Source: a virus
DNA: 45,909 nucleotides
Virus record (IMG/VR): IMGVR_UViG_3300018868_000009
Location: 1-45,909 of that record
Reading direction: 5' to 3' (one strand)
Positions within the stretch are counted from its first letter, which is position 1; every line of letters starts with the position of its first letter. Below, one piece after another: positions 5,310 through 30,772 of this stretch. Below the pieces are notes generated by a model. It ran no database searches and was not told where the DNA came from. It saw nothing but the letters and a program-made list of their open reading frames with translations. The translations under genes and the position numbers were made by a program.

Positions 5310-6080
5310 TTATTTGAAATGTTCTACTAGTCCTGTTTTTTTTAAAAAATCCAAACTAAAAACTCCATCGATCCTAAGACTAAAACCCATCACCTCACTT
5401 GGTTCACCGCCATGCCATTGGTGATTATCAAATGTTGATATGTAACCTTTTGCAAAATGTTTTTCTTGTGTGTCAGCATCATAAACGAAAAAATCTTTTT
5501 GTTTGTTAAATCGAATCCATAGAAACTGGTCTTTCATTGACTTTTCTGAATAATCTCTATGTATTGGGGTATAATTTCCTTCGGGGTTTAAAAATACTAC
5601 GACACGACCAATTTCATTAAAAAATCTCTGATTATTAATCCAGTCAAATAAAAAATCAAAATCTTTTCTTGGTGGCATATCCTTAGTTTCACTATCTAAA
5701 TGCTTTCGATGAAACTTACCACTATTTCCTCCTAAAGATTTATCCAATGACCTAATAGCCAAGGCCTGATTTAATGACCTACTTTTTGTTGTTAATAAAG
5801 TATAAAACAATTGTTGGTCATGAGATAACAAATTCCATTCTTCTTCATCTTTTAGTTTTTCATTGACACCAACCCAACAAGTTTTTACCTCAACAAAATT
5901 TTTATTAATTAACCAAGTGCGACCCACAGCATCTTCAGGACCACTAAATGCAATTGTAATATTTTTTTTGTTTCTTGCAATGGCATAAGCCATTTTCTTT
6001 TCCAAATCGGATATATCATTAAGATTAAAATACTCATCCAATTCGAACATTGCGTTTTTTAATATTGGAGCATAAATCAT
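5310..6080 (-). CDS. Cupin/2OG-oxygenase-like protein, 256 aa
   Basis: The C-terminal half resembles an Fe(II)/2OG oxygenase: H174-R-D176 in NYTPIHRDYSEK, a beta strand FLWIRFNKQKDFFVYD, then STFDNHQWHGGEP (H220 or H223 as the third ligand) and FSLRIDG with Arg236. The N-terminal 130 residues are unlike the two neighbouring oxygenases, so this is probably not a recent duplicate. It overlaps the radical SAM gene by four bases (ATGA), so the two are translated together; a joint role in a modification or biosynthesis step is a reasonable inference. Substrate unknown. Confidence 0.6.
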   Translation of the reverse strand: MIYAPILKNAMFELDEYFNLNDISDLEKKMAYAIARNKKNITIAFSGPEDAVGRTWLINKNFVEVKTCWVGVNEKLKDEEEWNLLSHDQQLFYTLLTTKSRSLNQALAIRSLDKSLGGNSGKFHRKHLDSETKDMPPRKDFDFLFDWINNQRFFNEIGRVVVFLNPEGNYTPIHRDYSEKSMKDQFLWIRFNKQKDFFVYDADTQEKHFAKGYISTFDNHQWHGGEPSEVMGFSLRIDGVFSLDFLKKTGLVEHFK

Positions 6081-7564
6081 TTTAATCCCCGATGTTTTAT
6101 CTTTAAGTTTATATAAGTTTGACCTTTATTTAAAATCTCTTGTCTAAACTTATTCCTAGCCATATCAGCCGTATCTGATTCCAGAACTTCCGTATCTGAT
6201 AATTTTATAAAATAGGTACTCTTTACTCTTGGTCTAAATTGATCCAGTTGTTCAGTTACACTTTTTGATATTTCATTGGCTTTAGAGGAACTCATACTCT
6301 CATGTTCCCATCTTAGTCCAGAATTGTTTTCTTTAAAATTAACAATTTTAATTCCAAACTTTTCAGGATTCAAAGACATTTCACTTTTCCACACATTAAA
6401 CTTTTGATTGTCAATAGACAAACTTTTAAAGTGTACTTCTTCCCACAAATCTGAATTATCCAGAAACCATTGTTTTGCTTCGTGTACAGATTCTTCTGTT
6501 TCTCCTGGTAAACCAATAATCATTTCAAATAATATATGACTATCAGGATTCTTTTCCTTAAATTCTTTAAGACATTCTTTTAGTTTATTTGGATCAGCAC
6601 CTTTGCCAATTTTTTTACCGGCATTTCTATTAAAAGTTTCAACACCAAAACTAAAATATTTCCAACCAATTTGGCCAACGAGATCCATCATTTCTGGTTT
6701 GGATGCTATTAGGTCTAAACGACCATAAGCCCAAAAGTCAAAAGGTCCAACTTCATCATGAACCTCTTTCATCATTCTCATTTTCTCAACAGTATCATTA
6801 AAAGTATCATCCATAAAAAAATAACGATTACTCTTATACTGCTCTTGATACAATTTAATATCTTCTGCTATCTGTTCTTTAGGTCTTACATAATCATTCT
6901 TGGTTTTTCCGTTGAGTGGAAAAGCACAAAAAGAACATTTAAAAATGCAACCTCTCGATATCTCTAAAGGTAAGACTTCATTAGGTTGTATAAAATCGGT
7001 TTCATGGAATCTAGTTTGTATATCAGTTACATCATTTACTGGATAAGACTCTTGGCAATTTATAGATTTACATTCATATGATATTCTTTTATTATAAAGT
7101 GTACCAATAGTTTCGGTTGTAAATTTTAAATCATTATTTTTGCCAGAAATATAATCCGATAAGGCAATAATGGCAATATCAGCATAACCATTAACAATCC
7201 AATCAGCATCATAAATCCATTTCATTCTTTCAGCTTTACTACCACCTATAACGATTGGTGATCTCTTTTTAATTTCTTCCCAAAAACCCCAATCGTCATC
7301 AAATCTAGTTATCTTGTCGTGATAAACTCTTTGACCTGGTTTATATTCTTGTTTACCTGGACCCATAAAGGTGGAACTAAAACCAATCCATAATGGCTTA
7401 GGTCCAGCGTCAATATAATCCAAAAGTTCTTGTGGTTTCCAAAATGAAAGATAATCTATAACTTCAACATCATAATTATATTTTCGTAATTCCGTGGCCA
7501 ACCTATAAGCACCTAGTGTTCTAGGTCCGGTCATGGGTGGAGAATCAGTTAATAAGTAAATCAA
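6077..7564 (-). CDS. B12-binding-type radical SAM enzyme, 495 aa
   Basis: The N-terminal 190 residues look like a cobalamin-binding-type Rossmann domain (MIYLLTDSPP, LATELRKYNYDVEVIDYL, SPIVIGGSKAER), although the classic DxHxxG motif is not seen. A radical SAM barrel follows, with the [4Fe-4S] motif C206-x3-C210-x2-C213 in EISRGCIFKCSFCAF, a YFFMDDTFN strand and FSFGVETFN. This layout is typical of B12-dependent radical SAM enzymes that methylate or rearrange unreactive carbons. The start codon appears to be TTG at 7564, overlapping the GroES-like stop; the next in-frame ATG (residue 11) would cut a conserved strand. It is coupled to the oxygenase gene that follows. The substrate is unknown. 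Confidence 0.8.
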   Translation of the reverse strand: MIYLLTDSPPMTGPRTLGAYRLATELRKYNYDVEVIDYLSFWKPQELLDYIDAGPKPLWIGFSSTFMGPGKQEYKPGQRVYHDKITRFDDDWGFWEEIKKRSPIVIGGSKAERMKWIYDADWIVNGYADIAIIALSDYISGKNNDLKFTTETIGTLYNKRISYECKSINCQESYPVNDVTDIQTRFHETDFIQPNEVLPLEISRGCIFKCSFCAFPLNGKTKNDYVRPKEQIAEDIKLYQEQYKSNRYFFMDDTFNDTVEKMRMMKEVHDEVGPFDFWAYGRLDLIASKPEMMDLVGQIGWKYFSFGVETFNRNAGKKIGKGADPNKLKECLKEFKEKNPDSHILFEMIIGLPGETEESVHEAKQWFLDNSDLWEEVHFKSLSIDNQKFNVWKSEMSLNPEKFGIKIVNFKENNSGLRWEHESMSSSKANEISKSVTEQLDQFRPRVKSTYFIKLSDTEVLESDTADMARNKFRQEILNKGQTYINLKIKHRGLK

Positions 7565-11190: not shown

Positions 11191-11371
11191 GCTTCTTTCC
11201 TTCATCTTTATCAAAAATTTGTTGCTCAATCGATGCTGCCAAATCTTCGGCAAGCTTAGGATTGAACTTTACTAAAAAATATGCTACATCAGCTGTATCG
11301 ATGTGACGCATATTGTATAATATTTCATCAATTCCTCGATGAATCTGATTTTCTTCCCATTGTGCTAACAT
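11183..11371 (-). CDS. Hypothetical protein, 62 aa
   Basis: The start is set at the ATG (11371) with a strong GAGG five bases upstream, giving MLAQWEENQIHRGIDEILYN and a continuing helical, acidic sequence (PKLAEDLAASIEQQIFDKDE). It looks all-helical. It follows the 51-aa gene by seven bases. Family unknown. Confidence 0.6.
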   Translation of the reverse strand: MLAQWEENQIHRGIDEILYNMRHIDTADVAYFLVKFNPKLAEDLAASIEQQIFDKDEGKKHE

Positions 11372-12262: not shown

Positions 12263-12634
12263 CTATTTCATGGTTTCAAAAGTTATACCTCGAATTTTAC
12301 TTTCCGGCATATTATGCATATCATCTGCTGAAATATAGGTAATATCAGCATGAGGATAACAAATTTTTACAAGTTTTAATAACTGGCAAATTGTACCATC
12401 AGAATCATTGAATGAGAAGATTTCATCAACACACTTCAGGTTTTTTATAATTTCACGGCGAGTGTCATACGATTGGACGTATCCACCTTCAGACCATTGC
12501 ATCCACCAATCAGAATGGATTCCAACAACGAGCCAATCTCCTTTGGTTTTGCACTTCTTTAAAAATTTAAGTTCTTCTAATGTGAGTGGGTCATAGGTTC
12601 CACAAACAATAACAATTCGGTCTTTTTCGAACAT
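12263..12634 (-). CDS. Cytidylyltransferase-like protein lacking HxGH, 123 aa
   Basis: The fold looks like a nucleotidyltransferase of the cytidylyltransferase superfamily: strand IVIVCGTYDPLTLEEL, then GDWLVVGIHSDWWMQW, TRREIIKNLKCVDEIF and SKIRGITFE in the place of the ISSTxIR motif. The catalytic HxGH motif expected right after 'GTYDPLT' is replaced by LEEL, so normal catalysis is doubtful. It may be an inactive paralogue that binds nucleotide or a partner. It overlaps the DUF6433-like gene by one base and lies downstream of RNase H. Compare the second, intact nucleotidyltransferase domain at 26365-28140. Confidence 0.6.
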   Translation of the reverse strand: MFEKDRIVIVCGTYDPLTLEELKFLKKCKTKGDWLVVGIHSDWWMQWSEGGYVQSYDTRREIIKNLKCVDEIFSFNDSDGTICQLLKLVKICYPHADITYISADDMHNMPESKIRGITFETMK

Positions 12635-16302: not shown

Positions 16303-16626
16303 TTAAACATTAAATGATGAGCCACATCCGCAGGTGCTTTTAACTTCTGGATTGGATATGACAAATTGTGAATTAAATTTTTCTTCTTTATAATCTAATG
16401 TTGCGTCCATTAAATATTGTGCTGACATGGAATCAACAAATACTTTAACATCATCTTTTTCAATCACAAAATCATCTTCTTCTTGATTTTCATCAAAACT
16501 AAATTCATATTGAAATCCTGAACAACCTCCTCCTTTTACGGACATTCTTAATGCCATATTAGGATTCTTTTCTTCTACAATCAAATCTTTTATTTTACTA
16601 AATGCATTATCGGTTACTTTAACCAT
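16303..16626 (-). CDS. A-type Fe-S carrier (IscA/ErpA-like), 107 aa
   Basis: The protein has the three invariant cysteines of A-type carriers: C35 in KGGGCSGFQYEF, and C99 and C101 in STCGCGSSFNV at the very C-terminus. Length (107) is exactly that of bacterial IscA. A-type proteins carry iron or Fe-S clusters to target enzymes. Such genes are known in marine T4-like phages, often labelled 'HesB-like'. Its G+C content is low (18 of 60 bases in a sampled stretch), like the rest of the phage and unlike the adjacent iscU. Confidence 0.9.
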   Translation of the reverse strand: MVKVTDNAFSKIKDLIVEEKNPNMALRMSVKGGGCSGFQYEFSFDENQEEDDFVIEKDDVKVFVDSMSAQYLMDATLDYKEEKFNSQFVISNPEVKSTCGCGSSFNV

Positions 16627-16627
16627 T

Positions 16628-17011
16628 TTATACCTTACATAAACATTTGAGTTTGTAATCTTTTATCGCTGCTTTAATCGCATCTTCAGCAAGTATTGAG
16701 CAGTGGATTTTGACTGGTGGGAGAGCAAGTTCCTCCGCAATCTGAGAGTTCTTAATCGATCCTGCCTGCTCAAGCGTTTTACCTTTGACCCACTCGGTAA
16801 CAAGGCTCGAGCTAGCAATAGCCGATCCGCAACCGTAAGTTTTAAATTTTGCATCTGTAATAATCCCATCTTTTACTTTGATTTGGAGCTTCATTACATC
16901 ACCACACGCTGGAGCACCCACCATACCGGTGCCAACAGTATCATCAATTTCCATCTTACCTACATTTCTAGGATTTTCATAATGATCCAATACTTTTTCT
17001 GAATAAGCCAT
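16628..17011 (-). CDS. iscU: IscU Fe-S cluster scaffold, 127 aa
   Basis: The sequence is a complete IscU. It begins MAYSEKVLDHYENPRNVG and keeps the three cluster cysteines C36 (GAPACGDVMK), C61 (YGCGSAIASSS) and C104 (VKIHCSILAEDA), with D38, H103 and the LPPVK motif (97-101) bound by HscA. It should accept sulfur from host IscS and use host HscA/HscB, since neither is encoded here. The C-terminus KCLCKV has two extra cysteines. I chose the ATG at 17011 (ribosome binding site GAAGGATAAA, homologous start) over an upstream in-frame codon at 17038. Its G+C content (28 of 60 in a sampled stretch) exceeds that of neighbouring genes, suggesting fairly recent capture from a proteobacterium. Confidence 0.9.
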   Translation of the reverse strand: MAYSEKVLDHYENPRNVGKMEIDDTVGTGMVGAPACGDVMKLQIKVKDGIITDAKFKTYGCGSAIASSSLVTEWVKGKTLEQAGSIKNSQIAEELALPPVKIHCSILAEDAIKAAIKDYKLKCLCKV

Positions 17012-17012
17012 T

Positions 17013-18797
17013 TTATCCTTCGCATGCAATACAATCATTGCCTTGGGCTATTTGTGTCATATCTAATTCTTTAATGACATTTCTTTCAATCTTCTTGGAA
17101 ACTTTATCTGCCTTACCAATCTTTTCAGAACGGCAATAGTATAATGTTTTCAATCCTTTTTTCCATGCCATAAAGTGAACAGCATGGATATACTTAATGT
17201 GAACATCTGGTCTAAAAAATAGATTTAATGATTGTGCTTGATCAATATATGCTTGGCGGTCAGCAGCAAGGTCGATAACCCAACGCTGGTCAATCTCCAT
17301 GGAAGTTTTGAACACATCCTTTTCAGCTTCACTTAAAATATCTAAATGTTGGCATGATCCATCGTTTGCAATAATGCTGGACCAAATATCAGCATAGTCC
17401 TGCTCATCTTTTGATTTTTCTTTGACAATCTTATCCAGCCAACGGTTCTTGTTTAAGAAAGAGCCCGAAAGAGTATCCTGCCGATAAGCATTGGCACGGT
17501 AAGGTTCAATACTAGGACTAGTATTCCCCATGATAATGGAAGAAGAAGCATTGGGAGCAATAGCCATAAGATGACTAAACCTACGACCGGTACCAGCCGC
17601 ATCAGGAGCTTCACCTCTCTCGGTACCCAATTCAATGTTCGCTGCATCTAAACCCTTTCGAATAGTTTTAAATATCTTGTTATTGGCTACTTTGGCCATA
17701 ACTCCTTCAAAAGCGATCCCGTTACGTTGTAGATAAGCATGAAAGCCGAGAGCGCCGATACCAATAGAACGCTCTCGTTCAGCGGAGTATCTAGCCCTAG
17801 AGATAGCGTCAGGAGCATTAGCAATGAAGTAATTAAGCACGTTATCAAGCATTTCAGCCACATCTTTAAGAAAAAGTTTATTGTTTTTCCATTCATCATA
17901 GGTCTCCAAATTTAAGCTTGATAAACAACATACGGCAGTTCTCTGTTCGTTTGTTGGTAAAATGATTTCTGAGCAAAGGTTTGATTGGTGTACCTTCAAT
18001 CCTTTTTCTTTTAGAAAAGATGGAAGTTCACGGTTACTTGTATCAATATAGTGAATATAAGGTTCACCTGTATTCATACGAATCTCTAACAGTTGTTGCC
18101 ATAGGTGTCGAGCAGATACCACTTCACGGATTTCTCCTGAGTGTGGATCCTTTAGTTCCCAATCATCACTTGCTTCGGGATCTAACATACATCTTTCCAG
18201 AATTTGCATGAAAGCATCGGGAATGTTTACACCATGGTGGAGATTCAAACAACGAACATTTGGATCGCCTGTCGGCTTTCGCATTTCTAAAAAAGAAATG
18301 ATATCAGGATGAGATATATCAAGGTAAGCGGCATAAGAACCACGCCGAGTGCGACCTTGGCGATAGGCCAAAGAACTCGCATCGTAAATTTTGAGATGAG
18401 GCATAACGCCTGTTGACTTATCATCAGCAGCACGGATACCAAATCCGATACCAACACCGCCGCCAAGCATAGAGAGCCAATTAGTTTCCGAAAGGTTATC
18501 AACTAATCCCTCCGCAGTATCTTCAATATAATTAAGGAAGCATGATATAGGCATGCCACGCTTACTACGACCAAAAGAGAGAATGGGAGTAGAATAAGAG
18601 AGCCAATGTTTACTGCTGTATTCATATAATCTTTGTGCATGATCTAAGTTTGTTCCAAATGATTTTGACACGAAAGCGAACCTGTGTTGTGGAGAAGTTT
18701 CATCTTCTCGCATATAAGATTCTTGAAGCCTTTTGATTCCAAGTTCATCGAATAGTTCATCTCGCTTTAAATCTATGTTGATGCCAAAATAATCCAT
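17013..18797 (-). CDS. nrdA: Ribonucleotide reductase large subunit, class I, 594 aa
   Basis: NrdA contains the catalytic site of class I ribonucleotide reductase. Visible residues: C86 (GMPISCFLNY) and C290 or C291 (TAVCCLSSLNL) as the redox pair, N273, C275 and E277 in SNLCSEIILPT for radical chemistry, the Tyr pair in LKTLYYCRSEK for radical transfer, and a C-terminal CIAC pair that takes electrons from thioredoxin or glutaredoxin. At 594 residues it is much shorter than E. coli NrdA (761) and has no obvious N-terminal ATP-cone, so dATP feedback inhibition is probably lost. The start is set at the ATG 18797 behind AAGG. Confidence 0.9.
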   Translation of the reverse strand: MDYFGINIDLKRDELFDELGIKRLQESYMREDETSPQHRFAFVSKSFGTNLDHAQRLYEYSSKHWLSYSTPILSFGRSKRGMPISCFLNYIEDTAEGLVDNLSETNWLSMLGGGVGIGFGIRAADDKSTGVMPHLKIYDASSLAYRQGRTRRGSYAAYLDISHPDIISFLEMRKPTGDPNVRCLNLHHGVNIPDAFMQILERCMLDPEASDDWELKDPHSGEIREVVSARHLWQQLLEIRMNTGEPYIHYIDTSNRELPSFLKEKGLKVHQSNLCSEIILPTNEQRTAVCCLSSLNLETYDEWKNNKLFLKDVAEMLDNVLNYFIANAPDAISRARYSAERERSIGIGALGFHAYLQRNGIAFEGVMAKVANNKIFKTIRKGLDAANIELGTERGEAPDAAGTGRRFSHLMAIAPNASSSIIMGNTSPSIEPYRANAYRQDTLSGSFLNKNRWLDKIVKEKSKDEQDYADIWSSIIANDGSCQHLDILSEAEKDVFKTSMEIDQRWVIDLAADRQAYIDQAQSLNLFFRPDVHIKYIHAVHFMAWKKGLKTLYYCRSEKIGKADKVSKKIERNVIKELDMTQIAQGNDCIACEG

Positions 18798-22052: not shown

Positions 22053-22355
22053 TTATAATTTAGGTGAACTTCTTTTAGCCATCGAAATCATTACTGGTGT
22101 TTTCTTTTTCTTCATATTAACACCAGGTTCACCACCTTTACCACCGGCACCAGCAATAGCGCCAGAGCTTACTGCATTAGTTGGTCCAGCAACTGCGGCT
22201 GCGGCACCATCTTCTTTAACTGGTACACAATTAGGTACTGTTGCACCATTCTTTTGTTTTGTACCAATAGCGGTATATCCTGTCCAACAAGCTTTCTTTA
22301 AATCGCCGGTTGGTTGTTTAACTTTTTCGTCCAAGTATTGTTTAAATGATTTCAT
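22053..22355 (-). CDS. Virion-associated protein with capsid-targeting-like N-terminus, 100 aa
   Basis: The start is set at ATG 22355, which overlaps the previous stop (TAATG), giving MKSFKQYLDEKVKQ. The first ten residues match the pattern of the T4 capsid-targeting sequence (MKTYQEFIAE) and include an L-x-E site for the prohead protease. A motif DLKKACWTGYTAIGTKQKNG, then TVPNCVP, follows; I have seen it in other marine T4-like phages. The middle is Ala/Gly-rich low complexity and the C-terminus is basic. Probably a small protein packed in the prohead. Not a known enzyme. Confidence 0.65.
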   Translation of the reverse strand: MKSFKQYLDEKVKQPTGDLKKACWTGYTAIGTKQKNGATVPNCVPVKEDGAAAAVAGPTNAVSSGAIAGAGGKGGEPGVNMKKKKTPVMISMAKRSSPKL

Positions 22356-22837
22356 TAACAGTTCCACTTTCTTAATGATAGTGCTTTACGAGTTGGTTCG
22401 CCGTTAGGTTTCTTCATCGGACCTTCCATACCACTCATTCGAGCACAAAATGATTTTCTACGATTTGCTGCTTTAGAACCAGGTTTTAATTTCGATGGAG
22501 GTGTTGTAACTGCCATCGATAATTTGGAACCAGGATGTTCTCTACGATACGAAGCGATACCTTTACGGTTTAATCCGCCTTTTGGATCTTTACCTGCTTT
22601 TCTTTGCCAAGCAGCAGATTCTTCTATATGATTTTTAATCCATGCATCAGGACTTTTTCCATGCTTAGATACAAAATCATCATGTAAATCTTTACCGGTA
22701 GTATTACCTTTTTTAGATATATCTGTCATCAATTTATCAATTGATTCATAGTCGTGGTTATCCAACTTCTTTAAGCCTTTTTCCAAGGCGGTAACACAAC
22801 AGCAATTTTCTTCTAAGTATTGTTTAAATGTTTTCAT
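22355..22837 (-). CDS. Virion protein, DUF6321-like, with capsid-targeting-like N-terminus, 160 aa
   Basis: The N-terminus MKTFKQYLEENCCC is nearly identical to that of the next gene (MKSFKQYLDE) and resembles the T4 capsid-targeting sequence, with a candidate L-E-E cleavage site. The C-terminal half (GLNRKGIASYRREHPGSKLS, then PGSKAANRRKSFCARMSGME and PTRKALSLRKWNC) is very basic and matches, from memory, a marine phage family called DUF6321. The basic domain could bind DNA inside the capsid. It overlaps both neighbours. Confidence 0.7.
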   Translation of the reverse strand: MKTFKQYLEENCCCVTALEKGLKKLDNHDYESIDKLMTDISKKGNTTGKDLHDDFVSKHGKSPDAWIKNHIEESAAWQRKAGKDPKGGLNRKGIASYRREHPGSKLSMAVTTPPSKLKPGSKAANRRKSFCARMSGMEGPMKKPNGEPTRKALSLRKWNC

Positions 22838-23220
22838 ATCTGTCGTAATATCTCTGCGATATTCATATCAACTGGTATTTCAGATGATCGAATGTTTTTG
22901 CCATTGATACCATAAATCATATCGGGCATCGTGTTTAAATATAACAAAAATGTTTTCAAAATATCATAATCTCGTTCATCTATTCTATAAAATAATATTC
23001 TGGCGGTTACTACCGGACCAAAAACATTATTTAATAGAATGATATGATTTAATATCAATCTTTCTTTGAGGGATTTGGAAACTTTATACCTACGAAACAA
23101 CCTCTTTAGGTATTTGGTTCTTTTAATATCTCCTTCAAATTCCGACATTACGCAATGTGAAGATGTATAACACTTCATTGCATACATCATAAAATTTTCT
23201 TCATTCAAATCATCAAACAT
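22834..23220 (-). CDS. Conserved T4-like marine phage protein, 128 aa
   Basis: The pattern MFDDLNEENFMMYAMKCYTS, KRTKYLKRLFRRYKVSKSLK, RLILNHIILLNNVFGPVVTA is one I recall from many T4-like cyanophages and pelagiphages as a conserved protein of unknown function. It is all-helical and basic in its first half. It lies within the virion block between two genes with capsid-targeting-like N-termini but does not itself have one. Confidence 0.7.
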   Translation of the reverse strand: MFDDLNEENFMMYAMKCYTSSHCVMSEFEGDIKRTKYLKRLFRRYKVSKSLKERLILNHIILLNNVFGPVVTARILFYRIDERDYDILKTFLLYLNTMPDMIYGINGKNIRSSEIPVDMNIAEILRQI

Positions 23221-23229
23221 AATTTATAA

Positions 23230-23598
23230 CTATTCTTTTAAGAGTTCTTCTAATTCCGTTTCGTTAGCAATAGTAGCAAAAGATTCGTAACCCTCTTTGG
23301 TAAAATTATAATTATAGTAAAAATAATAATTTTCTTTAGATTCTTCTAAATTCAAAGCCACAACTTCTTCACCTTCTTGTATATCTCTGAAAATTATTCT
23401 AGGTAATTGAATACCATATGGTGCCATTATCTTTGATGCGTTCACCCAACCAAGGTAAGGATTCAACCAACATTCAGTTAAACAAAGGTCTAACTGCTCA
23501 TTTATAGAATCGATTGAATCTATAAAAGAATCGGAAGTAGAAACAACGGAGATATTCTCTCCGCTGTGTTCTCTTATAAACTCACCAAACTTTAACAT
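23230..23598 (-). CDS. Hypothetical virion-block protein, 122 aa
   Basis: It begins MLKFGEFIREHSGEN, which again fits the pattern M-x-x-F-x-x-(F/Y)-(I/L)-x-E with a candidate I-R-E prohead-protease site. The rest is acidic (FRDIQEGEEVVALNLEESKE) with an aromatic stretch (ENYYFYYNYNF). No family recognised. Located next to the 215-aa structural protein with a one-base overlap, so co-translated. Confidence 0.65.
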   Translation of the reverse strand: MLKFGEFIREHSGENISVVSTSDSFIDSIDSINEQLDLCLTECWLNPYLGWVNASKIMAPYGIQLPRIIFRDIQEGEEVVALNLEESKENYYFYYNYNFTKEGYESFATIANETELEELLKE

Positions 23599-24245
23599 TA
23601 AACTCCACCAAAGATGCTATTAGCACTTGTATTAGCAGAACTTGTGTTAGATGCAACTGGACTTGCTAAAGCAACTAAAGTTTCTTTCAAGAAACGAACT
23701 GTACCATCGCTATTGATTTTGCGTGTAATACGATTCCAACCTTGATTGACACTACCAAGTTTAGTATTAGCAACAGTAGAACCACCAGCACCACTTGTAC
23801 CTGATGTGTTAGCCATACGAGTACCTGTTACTAAGATCGTATCGTTAGCAAAGTTAGCTTGTGTATTGGCGCCGTAATTAATTGCGGTACCAAAGTAAAC
23901 AGTTTCACCAGCTGCAATCGGTTGAACTGTATTACCAACAAAAGTGATTCGTTTGTCCGCAACGGCCGTGGTCATACTTGAAACACGGTTATTAGCTCTC
24001 CAAAAATCAACATCGTTTTGATCAACAATTGAAGCATCAAAGAAACGTGATAGTGCGTTGTTAGCTAAAGCGTAAGCATACTGACCATTCGCAACAGTTA
24101 GTGTTGGATTGGTTGTAAAAGTAATTACGTTTGTTCCTAATGCTGTCGCATTTGCTGTTACTAATGTTGCAACAGGACGCACTTCCCGCATATCTGGAAA
24201 GTGTGGCTTACTGTTAGCAGCATCTGTGTTAGACCATAATGGCAT
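23598..24245 (-). CDS. Putative virion structural protein, 215 aa
   Basis: The protein opens with MPLWSNTDAANSKPHFPD and is rich in Thr, Asn, Ala, Ser and Val with beta-like alternation, typical of phage capsid-decoration, tail or fibre proteins. It contains GWNRITRKINSDGTVRFLKE, which I recall from structural proteins of T4-like marine phages, and ends in an Asn/Ser/Ala-rich low-complexity tail. The ATG follows AAAAGGAGAAAAAA and a late-promoter-like GATAAATA lies 33 bases upstream. Role within the particle is unknown. Confidence 0.65.
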   Translation of the reverse strand: MPLWSNTDAANSKPHFPDMREVRPVATLVTANATALGTNVITFTTNPTLTVANGQYAYALANNALSRFFDASIVDQNDVDFWRANNRVSSMTTAVADKRITFVGNTVQPIAAGETVYFGTAINYGANTQANFANDTILVTGTRMANTSGTSGAGGSTVANTKLGSVNQGWNRITRKINSDGTVRFLKETLVALASPVASNTSSANTSANSIFGGV

Positions 24246-24277
24246 TTTTTTCTCCTTTTAACCTTTGGTTCTGATTG

Positions 24278-24285
24278 TATTTATC
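24278..24285 (-). promoter_or_regulatory. Possible T4-type late promoter GATAAATA
   Basis: On the minus strand GATAAATA differs from the T4 late -10 element TATAAATA at one position. It lies immediately after the stop of the 326-aa gene and about 33 bases before the ATG of the 215-aa structural protein. Its place in a true gap is the main support. Confidence 0.45.
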
Positions 24286-25266
24286 TTATTTCTTACTTAG
24301 CCTGTCGAATGCCATTTGGCCAGGAACTACATTCTTCATCAATGGATCAATCTCAACGGTATCTCTTTTGATTCCCGTTAATGTTGTTCCACCAACCATG
24401 ACTGCTCTTGCTTGAGGCTTCTTTTGGTCCATGTTATCTTGACCATCAGGTTTATCAATTTTTGGTTTTTTACCATAAGATTGAGCTTTATCGTCTTTCT
24501 CCCAATCGTAGGTTTCTTCTTTCACACCCTTAGCTTTATAAAGGGATTTAATAATACGAGCAGACTTTGTTCTTTCAGCTTGAACCGATTCTTTATTCAA
24601 ATGCTTTTCTAAACGGTCAATAGCAGAAGTCATATCATCTTTGTTTGTATCAGCAACAGGCACAGTCACTTTAGATGGATCCTGGTGTAATTTTTCTTGA
24701 CGTTTTTTCTCAATGTCGTTATGCTTCTTTTCTCTTTCATCAGCAGCTGCACGCCATCTATCTAAAGCAGTAGTTTTTGGCATTTTGGCTTCATCTAAAA
24801 CTTCTTCACTTGTAGGTTTGCGATCAGTTAAACGGTCTATTGCTCCGTCCCAACTTTTAGAACGCTTCTTGATTCTTACATTGAATGCTTTACGTTGTTC
24901 ACCAGGTTTTTTCTCAGGAATAGGCTTTTGTTGGCCCAACCAAGATTTAACTGTTTTCTTGGAGATTTCAACAATCTGTTCTACTTCTTCATTATCAGTT
25001 GCTTCTAGGATGTTTTCTTCACGAAAATTATGTTCGTGGTTTTGTTTCCATTGTAGAAATTGGCCAGATTTTGAATGAGAAATCTTTGTGTCCGTAGAAA
25101 CAAAGTTAGGATTAATTCCTCTAGATTTCAGAAATTGGTTTAACAGCTGTTGCTCAGATGCTTCAACAATACCTGCTTTGGCACCCCACGGATCCAAAGG
25201 ATCAATACCTGACTTTCCTCTGGCGGGTTCAGGATTCTGTTTAATGATATCCTTTAATCTTTTCAT
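24286..25266 (-). CDS. Hydrophilic virion-block protein, 326 aa
   Basis: A highly charged, probably largely unstructured protein (starting MKRLKDIIKQNPEPARGKSG). It contains NEEVEQIVEISKKTVKSWLG near residue 95, a motif I recall as recurring in T4-like marine phages. The I-V-E within it would be a prohead-protease site. Near the C-terminus is VMVGGTTLTGIKRDTVEIDP, which looks like an ordered beta segment. I infer an internal or core (scaffold-like) head protein that is cut during maturation. The N-terminus only loosely fits the capsid-targeting pattern. No enzymatic motif seen. Confidence 0.6.
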   Translation of the reverse strand: MKRLKDIIKQNPEPARGKSGIDPLDPWGAKAGIVEASEQQLLNQFLKSRGINPNFVSTDTKISHSKSGQFLQWKQNHEHNFREENILEATDNEEVEQIVEISKKTVKSWLGQQKPIPEKKPGEQRKAFNVRIKKRSKSWDGAIDRLTDRKPTSEEVLDEAKMPKTTALDRWRAAADEREKKHNDIEKKRQEKLHQDPSKVTVPVADTNKDDMTSAIDRLEKHLNKESVQAERTKSARIIKSLYKAKGVKEETYDWEKDDKAQSYGKKPKIDKPDGQDNMDQKKPQARAVMVGGTTLTGIKRDTVEIDPLMKNVVPGQMAFDRLSKK

Positions 25267-26351
25267 TTTGCATCACTTTTAATTTTATTGAAAGCTGAAC
25301 GAGCTAAATCTCTGGCACGGGACATTGGTGTGTGTATATTACCGCCTTTGTCCTTAACATTCTTTGACATTTTTTTCCAACCATCTTTTTCTAGAGCAGC
25401 TTCACGATCTTGACGGTCAACGTCCATTTGATTAAATTTACCTTCTTCAACTTGTTCAAATTCTTCTGGTAATTTACCTTTAGGACCGTGAGTACCTAAA
25501 GCAGATTTGATAGCAGGTTTAAGTTCTTTTGCTCGATCTCCACGGCGTTTTTCGGCATAAGCACCAGTTTCTTTACTGACACCAGGAGTATTCATTCCTG
25601 GAATGTTTCCTAGATTGGTTTGACCTGTGCGAGGAAACTTATGTGGCAAATTCATACCTGTCCGAGCAAGTAATTTATCAGCTTCTTCAACTTGTTCAAC
25701 TTCTTCATTACGATTCTTTGCAAGGTTCTCAGGAGCAGAGATAGAATCTTTCTTAGGACCTTTAGCATCAGCAACAGTCAATGGGGTGTCACCTTTAGCT
25801 TTACGGAGATAAGCAGGCACATCCGATTTACGGACTGTTTCTAGAAGCCTAGCAGCAAAAGATTTACTCTCTTTAACTTTCTTTTTACCACGGAGAATAT
25901 CAAAATCTTGACCATCAATTTTATTATTATGGTTGGCATCAATCTTAGCTTGATTACCTTTGAGTTCTTCTTTCATGTTCTTATCAGCAATAGCCTTTTT
26001 CATGGATTCTTTTTTATTACCATCTTTATCCATATCCAAAAAATCTGGTTTAGCGGCTTCTTTCATCTCTTTGTCCTTAGGACCTTTGAGAGCATCAACA
26101 GGAGATTTAGTTTGATCTTGGCGAGCTTTCTTAGAATTACCATAAGAAGAACCATACACTTTTGTTCCAGTTGGAGTTGCAACTTTTTCGTGGCCAGATT
26201 CACTCAATGTTTGTGATTCAACAGGTTGTGCAGGAGCAAATGGAACTCGGCCATTTGGAGTTTCCACTACAACAGGTTTTGGTTCTTCTTTTCCAAGAAC
26301 CTTATTGACCGCATCGATCATTGATTGACTTACTTTACTGGATGAAAACAT
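25263..26351 (-). CDS. Hydrophilic virion-block protein with EF-hand-like loops, 362 aa
   Basis: The ATG at 26351, behind GGAGAATAAAA, gives MFSSSKVSQSMIDAVNKVLG; a longer frame upstream is not needed. The protein is mostly disordered and charged. Two segments resemble calcium-binding EF-hand loops: KPDFLDMDKDGNKKESMKKA and KIDANHNNKIDGQDFDILRG. Two acidic motifs, NEEVEQVEEADK and PEEFEQVEEGKF, resemble the one in the 326-aa neighbour, suggesting shared protease sites or duplicated modules. Likely a prohead core or internal protein; this is inference from composition and position. Confidence 0.6.
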   Translation of the reverse strand: MFSSSKVSQSMIDAVNKVLGKEEPKPVVVETPNGRVPFAPAQPVESQTLSESGHEKVATPTGTKVYGSSYGNSKKARQDQTKSPVDALKGPKDKEMKEAAKPDFLDMDKDGNKKESMKKAIADKNMKEELKGNQAKIDANHNNKIDGQDFDILRGKKKVKESKSFAARLLETVRKSDVPAYLRKAKGDTPLTVADAKGPKKDSISAPENLAKNRNEEVEQVEEADKLLARTGMNLPHKFPRTGQTNLGNIPGMNTPGVSKETGAYAEKRRGDRAKELKPAIKSALGTHGPKGKLPEEFEQVEEGKFNQMDVDRQDREAALEKDGWKKMSKNVKDKGGNIHTPMSRARDLARSAFNKIKSDAK

Positions 26352-26364
26352 TTTTATTCTCCGT

Positions 26365-28140
26365 TTATTTTCTTTTCTTTTTCGAAACACTTGTTGCTCG
26401 AATTTTATTATCATTAGGTGTCACTAAAGGTTCTTTATTTGTGGCACCACCAAGAGTTCCTCCGACACCCATATCATAGGCACCAGGATCATCTATTGCT
26501 TCTTTTCTAAACTCACCAAAAGCTTTCTGTTCACTATATGTTTGATCACCTAAACCAATTCCTACACCAGATCGTGAATTGAATGTTGCACCAATTCCTA
26601 ATCCTTGATTCTTTTGCATACTGTAAATGTCATTAAACGTTTTTCTTTTTAAGCTTTTGGTTTTTTCTTTATCTTGCTGGAAGTTGGGCTCTTTCGGCGT
26701 GGATTGGATTTTGATTTTGGGATCGCTGGCTTCGTATGCACGGAAGGTGTAACCGGAGTTACTGGCGAGGTCACCGTCACGGACGTCATCTTGCTTTCCG
26801 GCTTTTCGCTGGATTTGCTGGACTGGACTGTTGTTGTCAACGAGGACTTGACCGGTTTTACTTTTAATTTTTCTAAGAAATTTGTTAGAAATTTGAACAT
26901 TTTTATCTTCCTTGAATAATGATTCTATCTTGTAATTAGTATACGATTTGTTATTCCTACACAACCAATCTTCAGCTGTTTCATTCAATACCCTTGAATC
27001 CAGAAATTCATTAGTGGATTCATATATTTGGTGGATATCTTCTTCTTTACTATCTATGTCGCCTGTATTATCTAATGGAACAAATACTTTAAAGGCTTCG
27101 GTGAAATATTTAGTATTTCTCTGCGATTTTGCCCATTTGTCACGGCGGACCGACTCAATCATCATTCTGGAGAGTAATGAATTTCGTTCTTTACTGGCTT
27201 CATCTGATGTGTCCACAAAGACCATCATGGTTTCATAACCCAATTCTTCAAGTTCTTCTTTAATATGTTCAATCTTCTCATTATCATCAGCAGGACCATT
27301 AACAATCAATGGACCACGGTTGCGGATAGCTTCTCTCCGTATATCTTTGGATTGTTCAGATAATCTCTGTTTATCAGCCAAGTAATCGATGGCTTGGACA
27401 AAATTGAGTTCTACGATACGGCTTTCGGAGATGGCTTCACGGATAACAATATCTTTACCTGAACCAGGACCACCAGTTACAAAGATTGCTTTGAAAATAC
27501 CACGGTCAACATCTTCGTGTATTCCCATACCTTTACGGACATCCTTATACAACTCTTTGGCATGAGCTTCGTGTTTCACCATGTGTGTGGAGAGACCTTT
27601 TTTGAATTCTTGATATTTGTTTGATTTGGCATGTTCCCGCATCTTGGTGCCGGACATACCTTCAGCACCTTCTGCGTCAGGATCTCTAGATCCGGATGAG
27701 TGAACTGTGATTTTTTTGAAATTATACGGTACATGACCTGACTTGTCGGCTTTACCATTATAACTGTTTAATTTTTCTTTATACTCTTTGACACGATCCG
27801 AACCAGCAACTACATGAAGGTGTGTAACACCTTGTTTATGGAGCTTTTCAGCGTGATGAAAGATTGTTGGATGTTCTTTATCCGAACCTTCAATATTAGT
27901 ATTTGGGAAAGCTCTCTTGGCGTGCTTAATTTTATCCTTCTGACTTAGTGGATCTTTTTTAGCATTCGTTGTATGTGAAAGAACAACATGATGTTCAGCA
28001 TTATGTTTAGCTGCTACTTCTTTAACCTTGTTGATAACCTTTTCATGACCCGCTGTTGGTGGATTCATCCGACCAAAAGCCAACACGGCATGCTTACCAG
28101 ATCCTTCTTTTTCTTCGACTAATTCTAGGAACGATTTCAT
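26365..28140 (-). CDS. NadR-like nucleotidyltransferase-kinase with capsid-targeting-like N-terminus, 591 aa
   Basis: Three parts are visible. Residues 1-10 (MKSFLELVEE) resemble the T4 capsid-targeting sequence. Residues 17-170 form a nucleotidyltransferase: AFGRMNPPTAGHEKVINK with an intact T-x-G-H motif, LHVVAGSDRVKEYKEK, and GMSGTKMREHAK as the ISSTxxR-type motif. Residues 215-400 are a P-loop kinase domain with Walker A GGPGSGKD (223-230) and LIVNGPADDN. The order adenylyltransferase then kinase is that of NadR (NMN adenylyltransferase plus nicotinamide riboside kinase), so NAD synthesis is a plausible role, though other nucleotide substrates are possible. The last 190 residues are charged and low in complexity. 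I chose the ATG 28140 because it starts the targeting-like motif. Confidence 0.7.
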   Translation of the reverse strand: MKSFLELVEEKEGSGKHAVLAFGRMNPPTAGHEKVINKVKEVAAKHNAEHHVVLSHTTNAKKDPLSQKDKIKHAKRAFPNTNIEGSDKEHPTIFHHAEKLHKQGVTHLHVVAGSDRVKEYKEKLNSYNGKADKSGHVPYNFKKITVHSSGSRDPDAEGAEGMSGTKMREHAKSNKYQEFKKGLSTHMVKHEAHAKELYKDVRKGMGIHEDVDRGIFKAIFVTGGPGSGKDIVIREAISESRIVELNFVQAIDYLADKQRLSEQSKDIRREAIRNRGPLIVNGPADDNEKIEHIKEELEELGYETMMVFVDTSDEASKERNSLLSRMMIESVRRDKWAKSQRNTKYFTEAFKVFVPLDNTGDIDSKEEDIHQIYESTNEFLDSRVLNETAEDWLCRNNKSYTNYKIESLFKEDKNVQISNKFLRKIKSKTGQVLVDNNSPVQQIQRKAGKQDDVRDGDLASNSGYTFRAYEASDPKIKIQSTPKEPNFQQDKEKTKSLKRKTFNDIYSMQKNQGLGIGATFNSRSGVGIGLGDQTYSEQKAFGEFRKEAIDDPGAYDMGVGGTLGGATNKEPLVTPNDNKIRATSVSKKKRK

Positions 28141-28144
28141 TGTT

Positions 28145-28717
28145 TTAAGATGCACCTATCTTCATATTTGTCAAAGGACCATTGTTGTGTTTAGATTGTA
28201 AACTCAAAACTTTGGCGCCTTTTGTATCATGTTCGTGTTCGTGTGCATGAACGTTAATATTTGCTTCGCCACCTTTATGGAAAGATAAATGATGAGCATT
28301 TCTAATTTTATGATATGTTTCATTGTCGGACGGATCGCTTACCGTAGCTTTGGCTTTCTTATCATGACCACCTTGGCCATGAACTTTAACATAAGGTAAA
28401 GAATGTTCTGAATTGCCTTTAATGTAAGTATGTAGAATATGATGTTTTAATTCTTCCGGATGAGTTTTAGCCATTGAAGAATAACCTTTATGCAGTTTAT
28501 CTCTCACTTCATTATTAATTATTTTGGCGTGTTCGCCGGCTTTTTTGTATAACTCACTTTTTTTATATTTTGGATTTTCTACTTTTTTCTCATTATCTAG
28601 GTGTTTAGGCCCTTTGATAGCTCTTACTGCTGCAGCTTTATTTGTGCCAAGTCCATGTTTAGTCATAAACTCTTGGTGGCGTGTTTGTACATGGCCATGG
28701 ATATCATACTCACTCAT
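28145..28717 (-). CDS. His-rich virion-block protein, 190 aa
   Basis: The protein is unusually rich in His and Lys (NVHAHEHEHDTKGAKVLSLQ). Its ATG follows a strong GGAG and overlaps the previous gene by eight bases. The C-terminal SLQSKHNNGPLTNMKIGAS looks like a folded end. Its length, His-rich style and position suggest it may be the second half of a larger protein, together with the 263-aa gene upstream, that is a single chain in relatives; this is a guess. No enzyme family is recognised with confidence. Confidence 0.6.
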   Translation of the reverse strand: MSEYDIHGHVQTRHQEFMTKHGLGTNKAAAVRAIKGPKHLDNEKKVENPKYKKSELYKKAGEHAKIINNEVRDKLHKGYSSMAKTHPEELKHHILHTYIKGNSEHSLPYVKVHGQGGHDKKAKATVSDPSDNETYHKIRNAHHLSFHKGGEANINVHAHEHEHDTKGAKVLSLQSKHNNGPLTNMKIGAS

Positions 28718-29501
28718 GATTTTCTCCTGAATGTTTGCCTAAAAACTTACTGAGTTCTTTTGTTCCGCCATTATGAAAAGGAATCTTATTAACTTTACTT
28801 GACTTAGCAGACAATCCAAGATAGTGATGTTTTGCTGTAGCGGGTTTTTTATGAAATTTGACAGCAATGTCCGATGGGTTTTCTTGTTGAGTGGCTTTGA
28901 GGCCTGTTTTTCTCTCAATGTCGCCAGGTTTTGGAGTTAAATGAACTTCGTGAACACCTTCATAACCTCTTTTTTTAGCATGTTCATGAAAAACTCTGGA
29001 TTGTTCTTTAGCTCTATCTTCTTGGGTTTTTACTTCGTGTGTACCATATTTCTTATCATGATCGGCTAATTTTGATTTGTGATATTTGTCCTGTGTTTCA
29101 TGTTCTTTGTCAATATACTTTCCAGAATTTAAATGTTTAGCCAATTGAGTTTCGTTGTAACCACCACGATAAGTATTTAATTCCGCTGATGCCGCCTTTG
29201 CAGCTTTATGTTTAGCACTATCTGCGGCTGACATGGCAGGTTTTTTGGCAAGTTCATCCAATCTTTCTTCATGTAACTTGTCGACCAAAATTAAACCATG
29301 GTCTTTTTTCAATTCTTTAGCTGCTTCATCTGGAGTTAAATGTCCGGAAACTGTGTGAGCCAAATCGCCATATTTGTTATGGACGTTATATACATTGTTC
29401 TCGGTATCATGACTTAACTTATACATTCCTTTGGTTGGATGATAAAAAGAATGGAATCCTTTTTTAATCTGTTCCAATAAGTAACTTTTAAAACTTATCA
29501 T
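28710..29501 (-). CDS. Nuclease-like virion protein with capsid-targeting-like N-terminus, 263 aa
   Basis: The N-terminus MISFKSYLLEQIKKG fits the capsid-targeting-like pattern with an L-L-E site. The middle is a long charged helical region with many His and Lys. Near the C-terminus, QENPSDIAVKFHKKP then YLGLSAKSSKVNKIPFHNGG has the shape of a PD-(D/E)xK nuclease core: P-S-D on one strand and S-x-K on the next, with Ser where Glu/Asp is usual. The 454-aa protein at 37323 has a similar pair (NPADLWIVD and GVSLKQ). If packed in the head it could attack host DNA on entry. Function is inferred. Confidence 0.55.
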   Translation of the reverse strand: MISFKSYLLEQIKKGFHSFYHPTKGMYKLSHDTENNVYNVHNKYGDLAHTVSGHLTPDEAAKELKKDHGLILVDKLHEERLDELAKKPAMSAADSAKHKAAKAASAELNTYRGGYNETQLAKHLNSGKYIDKEHETQDKYHKSKLADHDKKYGTHEVKTQEDRAKEQSRVFHEHAKKRGYEGVHEVHLTPKPGDIERKTGLKATQQENPSDIAVKFHKKPATAKHHYLGLSAKSSKVNKIPFHNGGTKELSKFLGKHSGENHE

Positions 29502-30718
29502 TTTCTCACCTTTAACAAATTCTGTTTAGCAAACTCAGCACGATTAACCAACTTAGTAGGTTCTTCTTTACCGCCTTCAGGTTTATGGTTCACTACAAAA
29601 CCCTCAGGTTTAGATTTCTTACCATCAATATGGTGGTGATATCTACCTTCATGAGTTTCTAATGAGTTAACCAAAGCGTTTTTAGCCTGATGTAAATGGT
29701 GGTGCATGGAGAATAGGTTACCGTAATGTTCTTTATGCTTTTCTACATGAGCAATCTGTTTCTTACCTTCACCAGTTTTTTCTGTTTTAGATTTTTCTGT
29801 TGAAACTTTAGAAGCTAACTTTTCATGAGCATCATGTAAGTGTTGCTTAAATCCTTTGACACTTGGAACTTCATCATGCCTTACTGTTTTGTTTATGTAT
29901 GTTGATAGGTGGCCAGCTTCTCCACTATGTTTTGGATGAACGGCATCATACATTTTGTGGCCATGTGTATCATGGATTTCTTTGGCGGCTGTCATATGTT
30001 TTTGAAAGTGTTTCTCATTCTCGGGCGAATGCTTTACTTTACTTGTGTCATGTTCAGCACCATGTAAGTGGACATCCGGATGATCTTTGAACTTACTCAT
30101 ATCTGGATGAGGAGAAACGGACATATGACCGATATCAGATCCGTGATATTGTTGATGTACCACTACGCCAACCTTGGATTTCTTAATCTTATCTGCTTCA
30201 CCTTTTTCCTTAGGAGTATAGGTGATTGTATTAGGTGTAAATGACACCTTAGAATCTTTGGCTTCCACGATATAACCCTCATGGAGAGTTTTGGTATCAG
30301 CATGGTGCATTAAATCACCTTGGTATACACCAGTTTTTGGTGTTACCTTAGGTAGATGCTTTAAAGCGTGTTTGAGTGTTTTTACTAAACCCGGTGCGTG
30401 GCCGTGGTTCTTTTCAATATCTTTATCTGTATGATTGATCTTGGGGTTCTTATTGAAGGCCGACTTGGTGGCCACAAAGAATTTACCATTTTTAGGGTGA
30501 TGACCAAAAACGATTGATGGAGAACCATCATATTTCATCGTCAGGTTACTATTTTGATGTCCAGCAGTAATGTGTGCATGAGCTTGATTTAAAACACCAA
30601 AAGCGTGTTCAAAACCCTTGTGGCCATGCATCAAAGGACGATCTTCAGCATGATGTATATGCTTCAAGCTCGAAGCTTCTTCAGATTCTTCTTTTAAAAA
30701 AGTTACAAACGATTTCAT
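29498..30718 (-). CDS. Ligase-like nucleotidyltransferase with capsid-targeting-like N-terminus, 406 aa
   Basis: The protein begins MKSFVTFLKEESEEASS (capsid-targeting-like; candidate L-K-E site). Residues 58-110 carry LTMKYDGSPSIVFGHH, where K62-Y-D-G is the motif I of DNA/RNA ligases and mRNA capping enzymes, whose Lys is adenylated. LHEGYIVEAKDSKVSFTPN resembles motif IV and KKSKVGVVVHQQYHG motif V. I recall a T4-like phage family, DUF6267, with this plan. The remaining sequence is His/Lys-rich. It could seal nicks or RNA in the newly infected cell. It is the first gene after the best late promoter (30765-30772), starting 47 bases downstream. Confidence 0.65.
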   Translation of the reverse strand: MKSFVTFLKEESEEASSLKHIHHAEDRPLMHGHKGFEHAFGVLNQAHAHITAGHQNSNLTMKYDGSPSIVFGHHPKNGKFFVATKSAFNKNPKINHTDKDIEKNHGHAPGLVKTLKHALKHLPKVTPKTGVYQGDLMHHADTKTLHEGYIVEAKDSKVSFTPNTITYTPKEKGEADKIKKSKVGVVVHQQYHGSDIGHMSVSPHPDMSKFKDHPDVHLHGAEHDTSKVKHSPENEKHFQKHMTAAKEIHDTHGHKMYDAVHPKHSGEAGHLSTYINKTVRHDEVPSVKGFKQHLHDAHEKLASKVSTEKSKTEKTGEGKKQIAHVEKHKEHYGNLFSMHHHLHQAKNALVNSLETHEGRYHHHIDGKKSKPEGFVVNHKPEGGKEEPTKLVNRAEFAKQNLLKVRK

Positions 30719-30764: not shown

Positions 30765-30772
30765 TATTTATA
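30765..30772 (-). promoter_or_regulatory. T4-type late promoter TATAAATA
   Basis: A perfect match to the T4 late -10 element on the minus strand, in a true intergenic gap of 124 bases. Transcription would begin near 30754 and enter the virion block (29498 downwards). T4 late promoters need the phage sigma factor gp55 and coactivator gp33, which are not encoded in this window. Confidence 0.7.

Follow-up and report, generated by a model that had tools for sequence, protein, structure and literature searches.

Known internal and injected head proteins

The internal proteins of bacteriophage T4 and their capsid-targeting sequence (CTS) reportedly go back to the work of Mullaney and Black in 1996. 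IPI-IPIII carry a ten-residue N-terminal tag with aromatic residues at positions 4 and 7, I, L or V at position 8 and E at position 10, which is also the composition of the tags described below (PMC9026906, PMC3012670, PMC12373910). Mutagenesis of the T4 CTS assigned residues 4 and 7 to targeting and residues 8 and 10 to cleavage, and a CTS with Asp at residue 10 was packaged but remained uncleaved (PMC9026906). The T4 CTS proteins IPI-IPIII are injected (PMC12373910). Another head enzyme of T4, the injected ADP-ribosyltransferase Alt, likewise has a short propeptide cleaved by gp21, but its propeptide, MELITE, falls outside the tag pattern (PMC5694885). The ejection proteins of the giant phages SPN3US and phiKZ, which include enzymes (vRNAP), are processed, packed into the head and ejected, as we propose here; unlike the proteins of our locus, they mostly have propeptides of more than 100 residues with A/S-x-E sites and no ten-residue I/L-x-E tag (PMC5694885).

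Mass spectrometry of purified virions of cyanophage S-SM1 revealed the cytidylyltransferase T4-GC190, which an earlier study of S-PM2 had not seen. The S-SM1 report gives it only as a structural protein without an assigned role, and its available text makes no mention of a targeting tag (PMC3037559). Our literature search on capsid targeting and cyanophages retrieved no work describing tags of this kind in cyanophages.

Six tagged genes in one block

The window, i.e., the whole stretch of viral DNA analysed (a 46-kb fragment of 45,909 nt), contains a block of eleven genes at positions 22053-30718, and not ten as the initial annotation had counted. The six similar decapeptides it had pointed out are all present at real gene starts on the minus strand, each with an ATG (22355, 22837, 23598, 28140, 29501 and 30718), so that six of the eleven genes are tagged. 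None of the window genes outside the block has such a start. The features are as follows, all on the minus strand:

30765..30772, minus: T4-type late promoter motif TATAAATA, 54 nt upstream of tagged gene 1 (DUF6267)
29498..30718, minus: tagged gene 1, MKSFVTFLKE and a DUF6267 (phrog_455) body (Pfam E = 4.9e-94)
28710..29501, minus: tagged gene 2, MISFKSYLLE and a 263-aa Lys/His-rich body; M1, F4 and E10 invariant in its alignment (A2)
28145..28717, minus: untagged Lys/His-rich protein of 190 aa between tagged genes; no family found
26365..28140, minus: tagged gene 3, MKSFLELVEE and cytidylyltransferase-like plus P-loop kinase-like domains (PHROG matches)
25263..26414, minus: untagged Lys-rich protein of 383 aa; the ATG taken as its start may be internal; weak PHROG matches only
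24286..25266, minus: Lys-rich protein of 326 aa whose start, MKRLKDIIKQ, resembles a degenerate tag; its PHROG match is weak (E = 5.9e-6)
24278..24284, minus: late-promoter-like ATAAATA upstream of the 23598..24245 gene
23598..24245, minus: untagged protein with the start MPLWSNTDAANSKPH, similar by eye, at the N-terminus only, to S-SM1 GC425 / HTVC008M MGLWGATDADESKPK (tblastn with GC425 gave no hit)
23230..23598, minus: tagged gene 4, MLKFGEFIRE and a 122-aa acidic body
22834..23220, minus: untagged DUF7207 (phrog_407) protein (Pfam E = 2.9e-35), syntenic in cyanophages (GC198)
22355..22837, minus: tagged gene 5, MKTFKQYLEE and a basic body (+0.10 per residue) with a DUF6321 C-terminus (Pfam E = 3.4e-23)
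22053..22355, minus: tagged gene 6, MKSFKQYLDE and a basic body of 100 aa whose Gly-rich tail ends in Lys

The cleavage motif (I/L)-x-E had been assigned to five tags and V-E-E to the sixth; the five were confirmed, and the sixth also contains L7-V8-E9, the motif being present in all six. Aromatic residues at 4 and 7, I/L at 8 and E10 occur together in five of the six tags, the exception being MKSFLELVEE with L7 and V8. A pattern fitted to the six tags matched 6 of the 1027 start codons in the window, all six inside the block, and 14 of 11,290 internal Met positions at related loci. A second pattern, M..[FY]..[FYW][ILV].E, was taken from the published T4 mutagenesis and not from the six tags. 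It matched 5 of the 64 window genes (5/964 start codons), every one of them inside the block; the background was 19 matches at 11,290 internal Met positions (P about 1e-7 for 5/64 genes).

The tag in T4, S-SM1 and related genomes

The literature-based pattern matched only two of 2594 start codons in T4, those of IPII and IPIII, and one of 3881 in S-SM1, that of the cytidylyltransferase GC190. Within five related near-complete genomes (G001-G005, 151-236 kb), real genes with the tag are located between gp41 and gp61, except for two in G004, where the tagged gene at 96380 adjoins a HAD-type gene that is also tagged and has a late promoter of its own. No replication or metabolic genes with the tag were found in these five genomes. 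The occurrence of the pattern on non-virion genes of relatives, named in the initial annotation as evidence against its reading, was seen in no case in S-SM1 and G001-G005 (six complete or near-complete genomes). The possibility that the pattern is widespread on marine T4-like genes generally was rejected by genome-wide scans of the same genomes.

All 286 of 286 tagged starts in the relatives are ATG, though 44% of candidate start codons are non-ATG. As one search seed (MKTFKQYL) itself contained the tag, the query families were removed from the count, after which 102 of 2833 other genes were still tagged versus the 14 of 11,290 internal Met; the relatives' loci are mutually related and these counts are not independent. 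The number of different body clusters with the tag ranges from 12 under loose to 26 under strict clustering. In some proteins homologous to those at 22053 and 22355 the tag is shortened or altered. The gp21 protease is encoded in 5/5 of the related near-complete genomes, and gp21, gp22 and gp23 are absent from the window.

The DUF6267 gene and the predicted late promoter

In 27 relatives of the DUF6267 protein (28-90% identity), the tag never varies at E10 and keeps F4, F7 and L8 in at least 90%, so that constraint falls on positions 4, 7, 8 and 10, with drift at 2, 3, 5, 6 and 9. The body contains the ligase/nucleotidyltransferase-like motifs K62-x-D64-G65, E372-G373 and K389, in which K62, D64, E372, G373 and K389 are invariant in the 27 relatives. 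The structural model has a pLDDT of 85 overall and below 50 for residues 1-18, the tag being predicted as unstructured on a folded body. The description of this protein as ligase-like agrees with the conserved motifs; the three best matches in the fold search were ligases, but not significant (E 0.34 to 0.99), and a sequence search against solved structures returned nothing. DUF6267 proteins of HTVC008M, Syn19 and S-SM1 are without a canonical tag and freshwater relatives are tagged, thus tagging is not essential to the DUF6267 family. No mention of DUF6267, DUF6321 or DUF7207 was found in the literature searched.

The motif TATAAATA was found in 98 of 111 relatives, mostly 51-56 nt upstream, compared with 53 of 2575 untagged genes (2.1%). 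In four related genomes it also stands before gp22, the head-scaffold gene, and it lies upstream of the S-SM1, HTVC008M and Syn19 genes that resemble the 23598..24245 gene in start and position. Judging from the predicted promoter motif common to tagged gene 1 and gp22, the block would be expressed late.

The cytidylyltransferase/kinase gene and GC190

The 26365 protein matched phrog_3041/395 cytidyltransferase (E = 2.8e-62), followed by phrog_2071 ATPase (E = 1.6e-6). An identity as cytidylyltransferase plus P-loop kinase is thereby supported. The order of the two domains is that expected from the earlier label "NadR-like", but no NadR-specific match was obtained. The protein is homologous to S-SM1 GC190 (SSM1_190; 36% identity, 1e-34), an enzyme encoded in the same genomic interval with the tag MKKFSAFLNE, which, unlike the six of the window, is the sole tagged gene of its genome. 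Among marine GC190 proteins, F4, F7, L8 and E10 are kept in 80/80 and residue 9 varies; many of these tags read FLTEAE, six letters of the T4 gp23 cleavage site. The tag on GC190 is a likely reason for the presence of a cytidylyltransferase in cyanophage particles.

Other genes of the block

The 28710 protein had been called nuclease-like, for which family and fold searches gave no support (moderate model, pLDDT 70, no fold match). Proteins of the block have a more basic composition than the other proteins (p = 4e-4), with one acidic tagged body (23230), so the description "small basic proteins" holds for the 22053 and 22355 bodies and not for the 23230 one. The ATG of tagged gene 6 at 22355 overlaps the stop of the preceding gene. 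The Syn19 gene at the place of the 23598..24245 gene is annotated as a virion structural protein.

T4 gp61.1 starts with MKTFKEFIKE and adjoins gp61 in the gp41-gp61 interval, the interval that also holds the block of the window, but unlike the window enzymes it has only 54 aa and no known function. Its tail is similar to that of the 22053 protein, but the two belong to different PHROG families and homology is not claimed.

Interpretation and alternative explanations

The block very probably encodes late internal head proteins of a Kyanoviridae-like phage, with T4-type tags, an enzyme cargo and presumed cleavage and injection. Targeting of the tagged proteins to the head by a T4-type CTS, as first suggested in the initial annotation, is well supported by genome-wide specificity, conserved functional positions, the late promoter and the published detection of GC190 in S-SM1 virions by mass spectrometry (PMC3037559). 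The tag, its constraint pattern, its specificity and the predicted late promoter are read from sequence; we infer the targeting of the other five proteins, and also cleavage, injection and any counter-defence role. The CTS decapeptide would bind the six proteins to the prohead scaffolding core, a gp21-type protease would probably cut the tag after E10 (or E9), and the folded bodies would be retained in the DNA-filled head and reach the host cell together with the genome.

As in T4 IPI-IPIII, one label is placed on unrelated bodies, the late promoter motif is T4-like, and the relatives of the window have a gp21-type protease. Unlike T4, the window belongs to a distant clade (Kyanoviridae-like, freshwater), its cargo extends to proteins of enzyme size (263-591 aa), and its tagged genes form one late gp41-gp61 block and are not at the T4 ip loci. 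Given unrelated bodies, several of them enzymes, the label is likely a portable address open to new cargo, and the proposed mobile address label agrees with the same DUF6267 body being tagged or untagged according to the phage and with the 12 to 26 tagged bodies.

It is rather unlikely that the tag leads to the prohead core proteins which are assembly or scaffold parts, acting or digested in the head, and not enzymes delivered to the host. Such a role would suit the late promoter motif common to tagged gene 1 and the scaffold gene gp22, and some block proteins that are low-complexity, Lys-rich and resemble core proteins. However, the bodies keep KxDG and cytidylyltransferase motifs needless for scaffolding, which argues against it, the homologous tagged enzyme GC190 persists in mature virions (PMC3037559), and IPI-IPIII of T4 are injected (PMC12373910).

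Similarly doubtful is packaging via the tag without cleavage, the decapeptide being a scaffold-binding helix only. The P1' residues after E10 are K, N, H, E and Q in the window tags and A in T4 and marine tags, which makes cleavage less certain; packaging without cleavage is known from the T4 Asp10 variant (PMC9026906), and in certain homologues the tag has no I/L-x-E at its usual position. On the other hand, no residue is kept more strictly than E10, which in T4 nevertheless serves cleavage and not targeting, and gp23 keeps its L-x-E sites where checked (LNE before T in relatives, LTE before T in S-SM1).

That the N-terminal likeness arose by duplication, shuffling or an AT-rich, Lys/Phe-rich start bias with no targeting role is highly improbable: in its favour are the AT-richness of the genome and the C-terminal modules common to several body families, which indicate that shuffling occurs in the block, but the internal-Met background is about 0.1-0.2%, the relatives' tagged starts are exclusively ATG, constraint is limited to the four functional positions, and the pattern singles out IPII, IPIII and GC190 in other genomes. 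Chance or start-codon bias was rejected from the window and internal-Met counts and the ATG-only starts.

On the reading as tagged and injected head proteins, six unrelated neighbours with a T4-type head label suggest that such phages probably reach the cell with ready-made enzymes, and this lake-type, Kyanoviridae-like group of bacterial viruses probably enters with its own enzyme set. The coliphage T4 mechanism would thereby be extended to abundant environmental phages whose accessory proteins mostly lack a function, and a gene-start scan for the tag and late promoter would predict virion-borne proteins and candidate injected counter-defence enzymes. More tentatively, a large and environmentally common T4-like clade may inject a variable kit of tagged enzymes that acts before phage gene expression, with gp41-gp61 as the loading site and T4 gp61.1 as an overlooked internal protein. 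If true, the injected kit would serve nucleic-acid repair or nucleotide/NAD counter-defence ahead of phage expression. The kit in that reading comprises ligase-like, polynucleotide-kinase/phosphatase-like, nucleotidyltransferase/kinase and peptidase proteins.

Gene Block and Specificity of the Tag

The 45.9-kb IMG/VR phage fragment carries its genes on the minus strand, including T4-like replication genes (DNA polymerase gp43, UvsX, helicase gp41, primase gp61) that share 35-63% identity with those of cyanophage S-SM1. Ribonucleotide reductase and RNase H are also encoded. In the interval between gp41 and gp61, a run of apparent glycosyl/methyltransferase-type genes, judged as such by eye, is followed by an eleven-gene block (22053-30718). 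Six of the block genes start with decapeptides that the initial annotation had read as T4-type capsid-targeting sequences (CTS, here tags).

The first regular expression was fitted post hoc to the six decapeptides themselves and matched 6 of 1027 start codons in the window, all of them block genes; for this reason, it was replaced by a pattern based on published mutational data for the T4 tag, where residues 4 and 7 affect targeting, residues 8 and 10 affect cleavage, and Asp at position 10 blocks cleavage only (PMC9026906). The literature-based pattern, M..[FY]..[FYW][ILV].E, matched only the internal proteins IPII and IPIII in T4 (2/2594 starts of reading frames of at least 60 aa) and a single gene in S-SM1, the cytidylyltransferase of the GC190 family (1/3881). 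In the window it picked out five block genes and nothing else (5/964; P about 1e-7 against internal Met), while the sixth tag, MKSFLELVEE, failed solely through Leu at residue 7. The initial annotation was right about the tag.

The looser fitted pattern matched T4 gp61.1 (MKTFKEFIKE), a 54-aa protein encoded next to gp61 (L186, NC_000866, 18966-19130, minus strand) and possibly an internal protein that has been overlooked in T4. The small tagged proteins (window 22053-22355 and homologues in loci L104, L119 and L101) end in a Gly-rich stretch and a Lys run (GAIAG.GGKGGEPGV..KKKK) resembling the gp61.1 tail, and PHROGs gave no link between proteins of this type and gp61.1.

Among 27 DUF6267 proteins with 28-90% identity to that of the window, E10 never varies, and F4, F7 and L8 are each conserved in at least 90%, whereas residues 2, 3, 5, 6 and 9 vary; the conserved positions are those that matter in the T4 tag. 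All 80 marine GC190 homologues start with MK[KSN]F[SN]AFL[TNSIV]EA; their common form includes FLTEAE, which is also the sequence of the T4 gp23 site. When the window DUF6267 protein was modelled, the first 18 residues had confidence below 50 and the remainder was well folded, as expected for a detachable label.

Tagged Genes in Related Phages

The relatives comprised 178 loci from IMG/VR searches with 3017 genes, 286 of them tagged; these loci share kinship, and p-values are indicative only. Every tagged start was ATG, compared with 56% among candidate start codons. After removal of the query families, 102 of 2833 genes were still tagged, against 14 of 11,290 internal Met. The tagged bodies formed from 12 (loose linking) to 26 (strict linking) clusters, including DUF6267, cytidylyltransferase, DUF6321 proteins, the family of block gene 28710 and a HAD-type protein matching a polynucleotide-kinase PHROG.

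In five related near-complete genomes (G001-G005, 151-236 kb), tagged real genes were found between gp41 and gp61: three in G001, two in G003 and one each in G002, G004 and G005. No tag was seen on replication or metabolic genes of these genomes. G004 has two more tagged genes outside the interval, at 96380 and at 122013, the latter with no function assigned.

Long tagged proteins of L163 (8648-10282, QSFKSFISEGRPSQ) and L100 (9011-10171, IPFKTFVDECWTG) contain a second, internal tag-like segment, as if tagged modules were fused in tandem that the protease might cut apart. In G001 (116345-117536), as well as in L093, L099 and L101, DUF6267 is present as two adjacent frames (148 + 251 aa), with the tag on the first.

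Late Promoter Motif

The motif TATAAATA, the late promoter of T4, was located at the block and at the second tagged locus of G004:

30772-30765, minus strand: presumed late promoter TATAAATA, 54 nt upstream of the first tagged gene
95748-96758 of G004 (L300): HAD-type protein (MFSYSIFLSE) behind its own TATAAATA, then the HExxH peptidase-like protein at 96380 (MKSYLSYLNE)

Of 111 relatives, 98 have TATAAATA in the 120 nt before the tagged DUF6267 gene, nearly always at 51-56 nt, as against only 53 of 2575 untagged genes. In the related genomes the motif is rare and is found largely on the coding strand. It stands before gp22 in G001, G002, G003 and G005, before gp14, gp18 and gp23 in G004, and before gp18 and gp22 in S-SM1, where a variant precedes gp20. 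Given this placement upstream of tagged and head genes, the block is predicted, as far as sequence can tell, to be expressed together with the head genes despite its location among replication genes. ATAAATA is about five-fold depleted in the whole window (5 vs. 24 expected), with all five copies on the coding strand, a pattern that would fit selection against stray late promoters.

Virion Evidence and Proposed Route

The packaging proposed in the initial annotation is probably right. Sullivan et al. (2010, PMC3037559) detected the cytidylyltransferase T4-GC190, a homologue of the window 26365 protein, in purified S-SM1 particles; the protein set of an earlier study on S-PM2 did not include it. 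In Syn19, the gene at the position of the untagged block gene 23598 carries the annotation virion structural protein.

In T4, CTS proteins attach to the core and lose their tag to gp21, after which the bodies remain in the head until they are injected; IPI, IPII and IPIII act as inhibitors, each against different type IV restriction enzymes of the GmrSD kind (PMC9026906, PMC12373910). The six tagged block proteins, several of them probable enzymes, would follow the same route of core binding, gp21 cleavage, head retention and injection. The gp21 homologues are present in relatives, and gp23 L-x-E sites are kept where checked; the window fragment itself carries neither gp21 nor gp23. Tag cleavage appears less certain than targeting because the P1' residues differ. 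The block would represent internal proteins of the T4 type, several of them probable enzymes, in an environmental clade of T4-like phages; they are probably packaged and, by analogy with T4, would be injected and act as enzymes in the host.

Probable Cargo

The 26365 protein combines a cytidylyltransferase domain with a P-loop ATPase/kinase domain. In DUF6267 the KxD residues are invariant, with E-G and K positions further along the chain; the top-ranking folds matched to it are ligases, none significant. For 28710, family and fold searches supported no function. A counter-defence role of the cargo is plausible because the stretch between gp41 and gp61 in T4 forms an anti-toxin-antitoxin island (dmd, tifA/61.4, adfA/61.2; PMC9391042).

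A second small cytidylyltransferase-like protein (12263-12634; PF01467, E=4.1e-7) is untagged and lies away from the block. This phage genome also carries, beside ribonucleotide reductase, genes that by eye look like Fe-S cluster assembly genes (IscA/HesB-like and NifU-like), plus a radical SAM protein, at 16303-17038 and 6077-7564.
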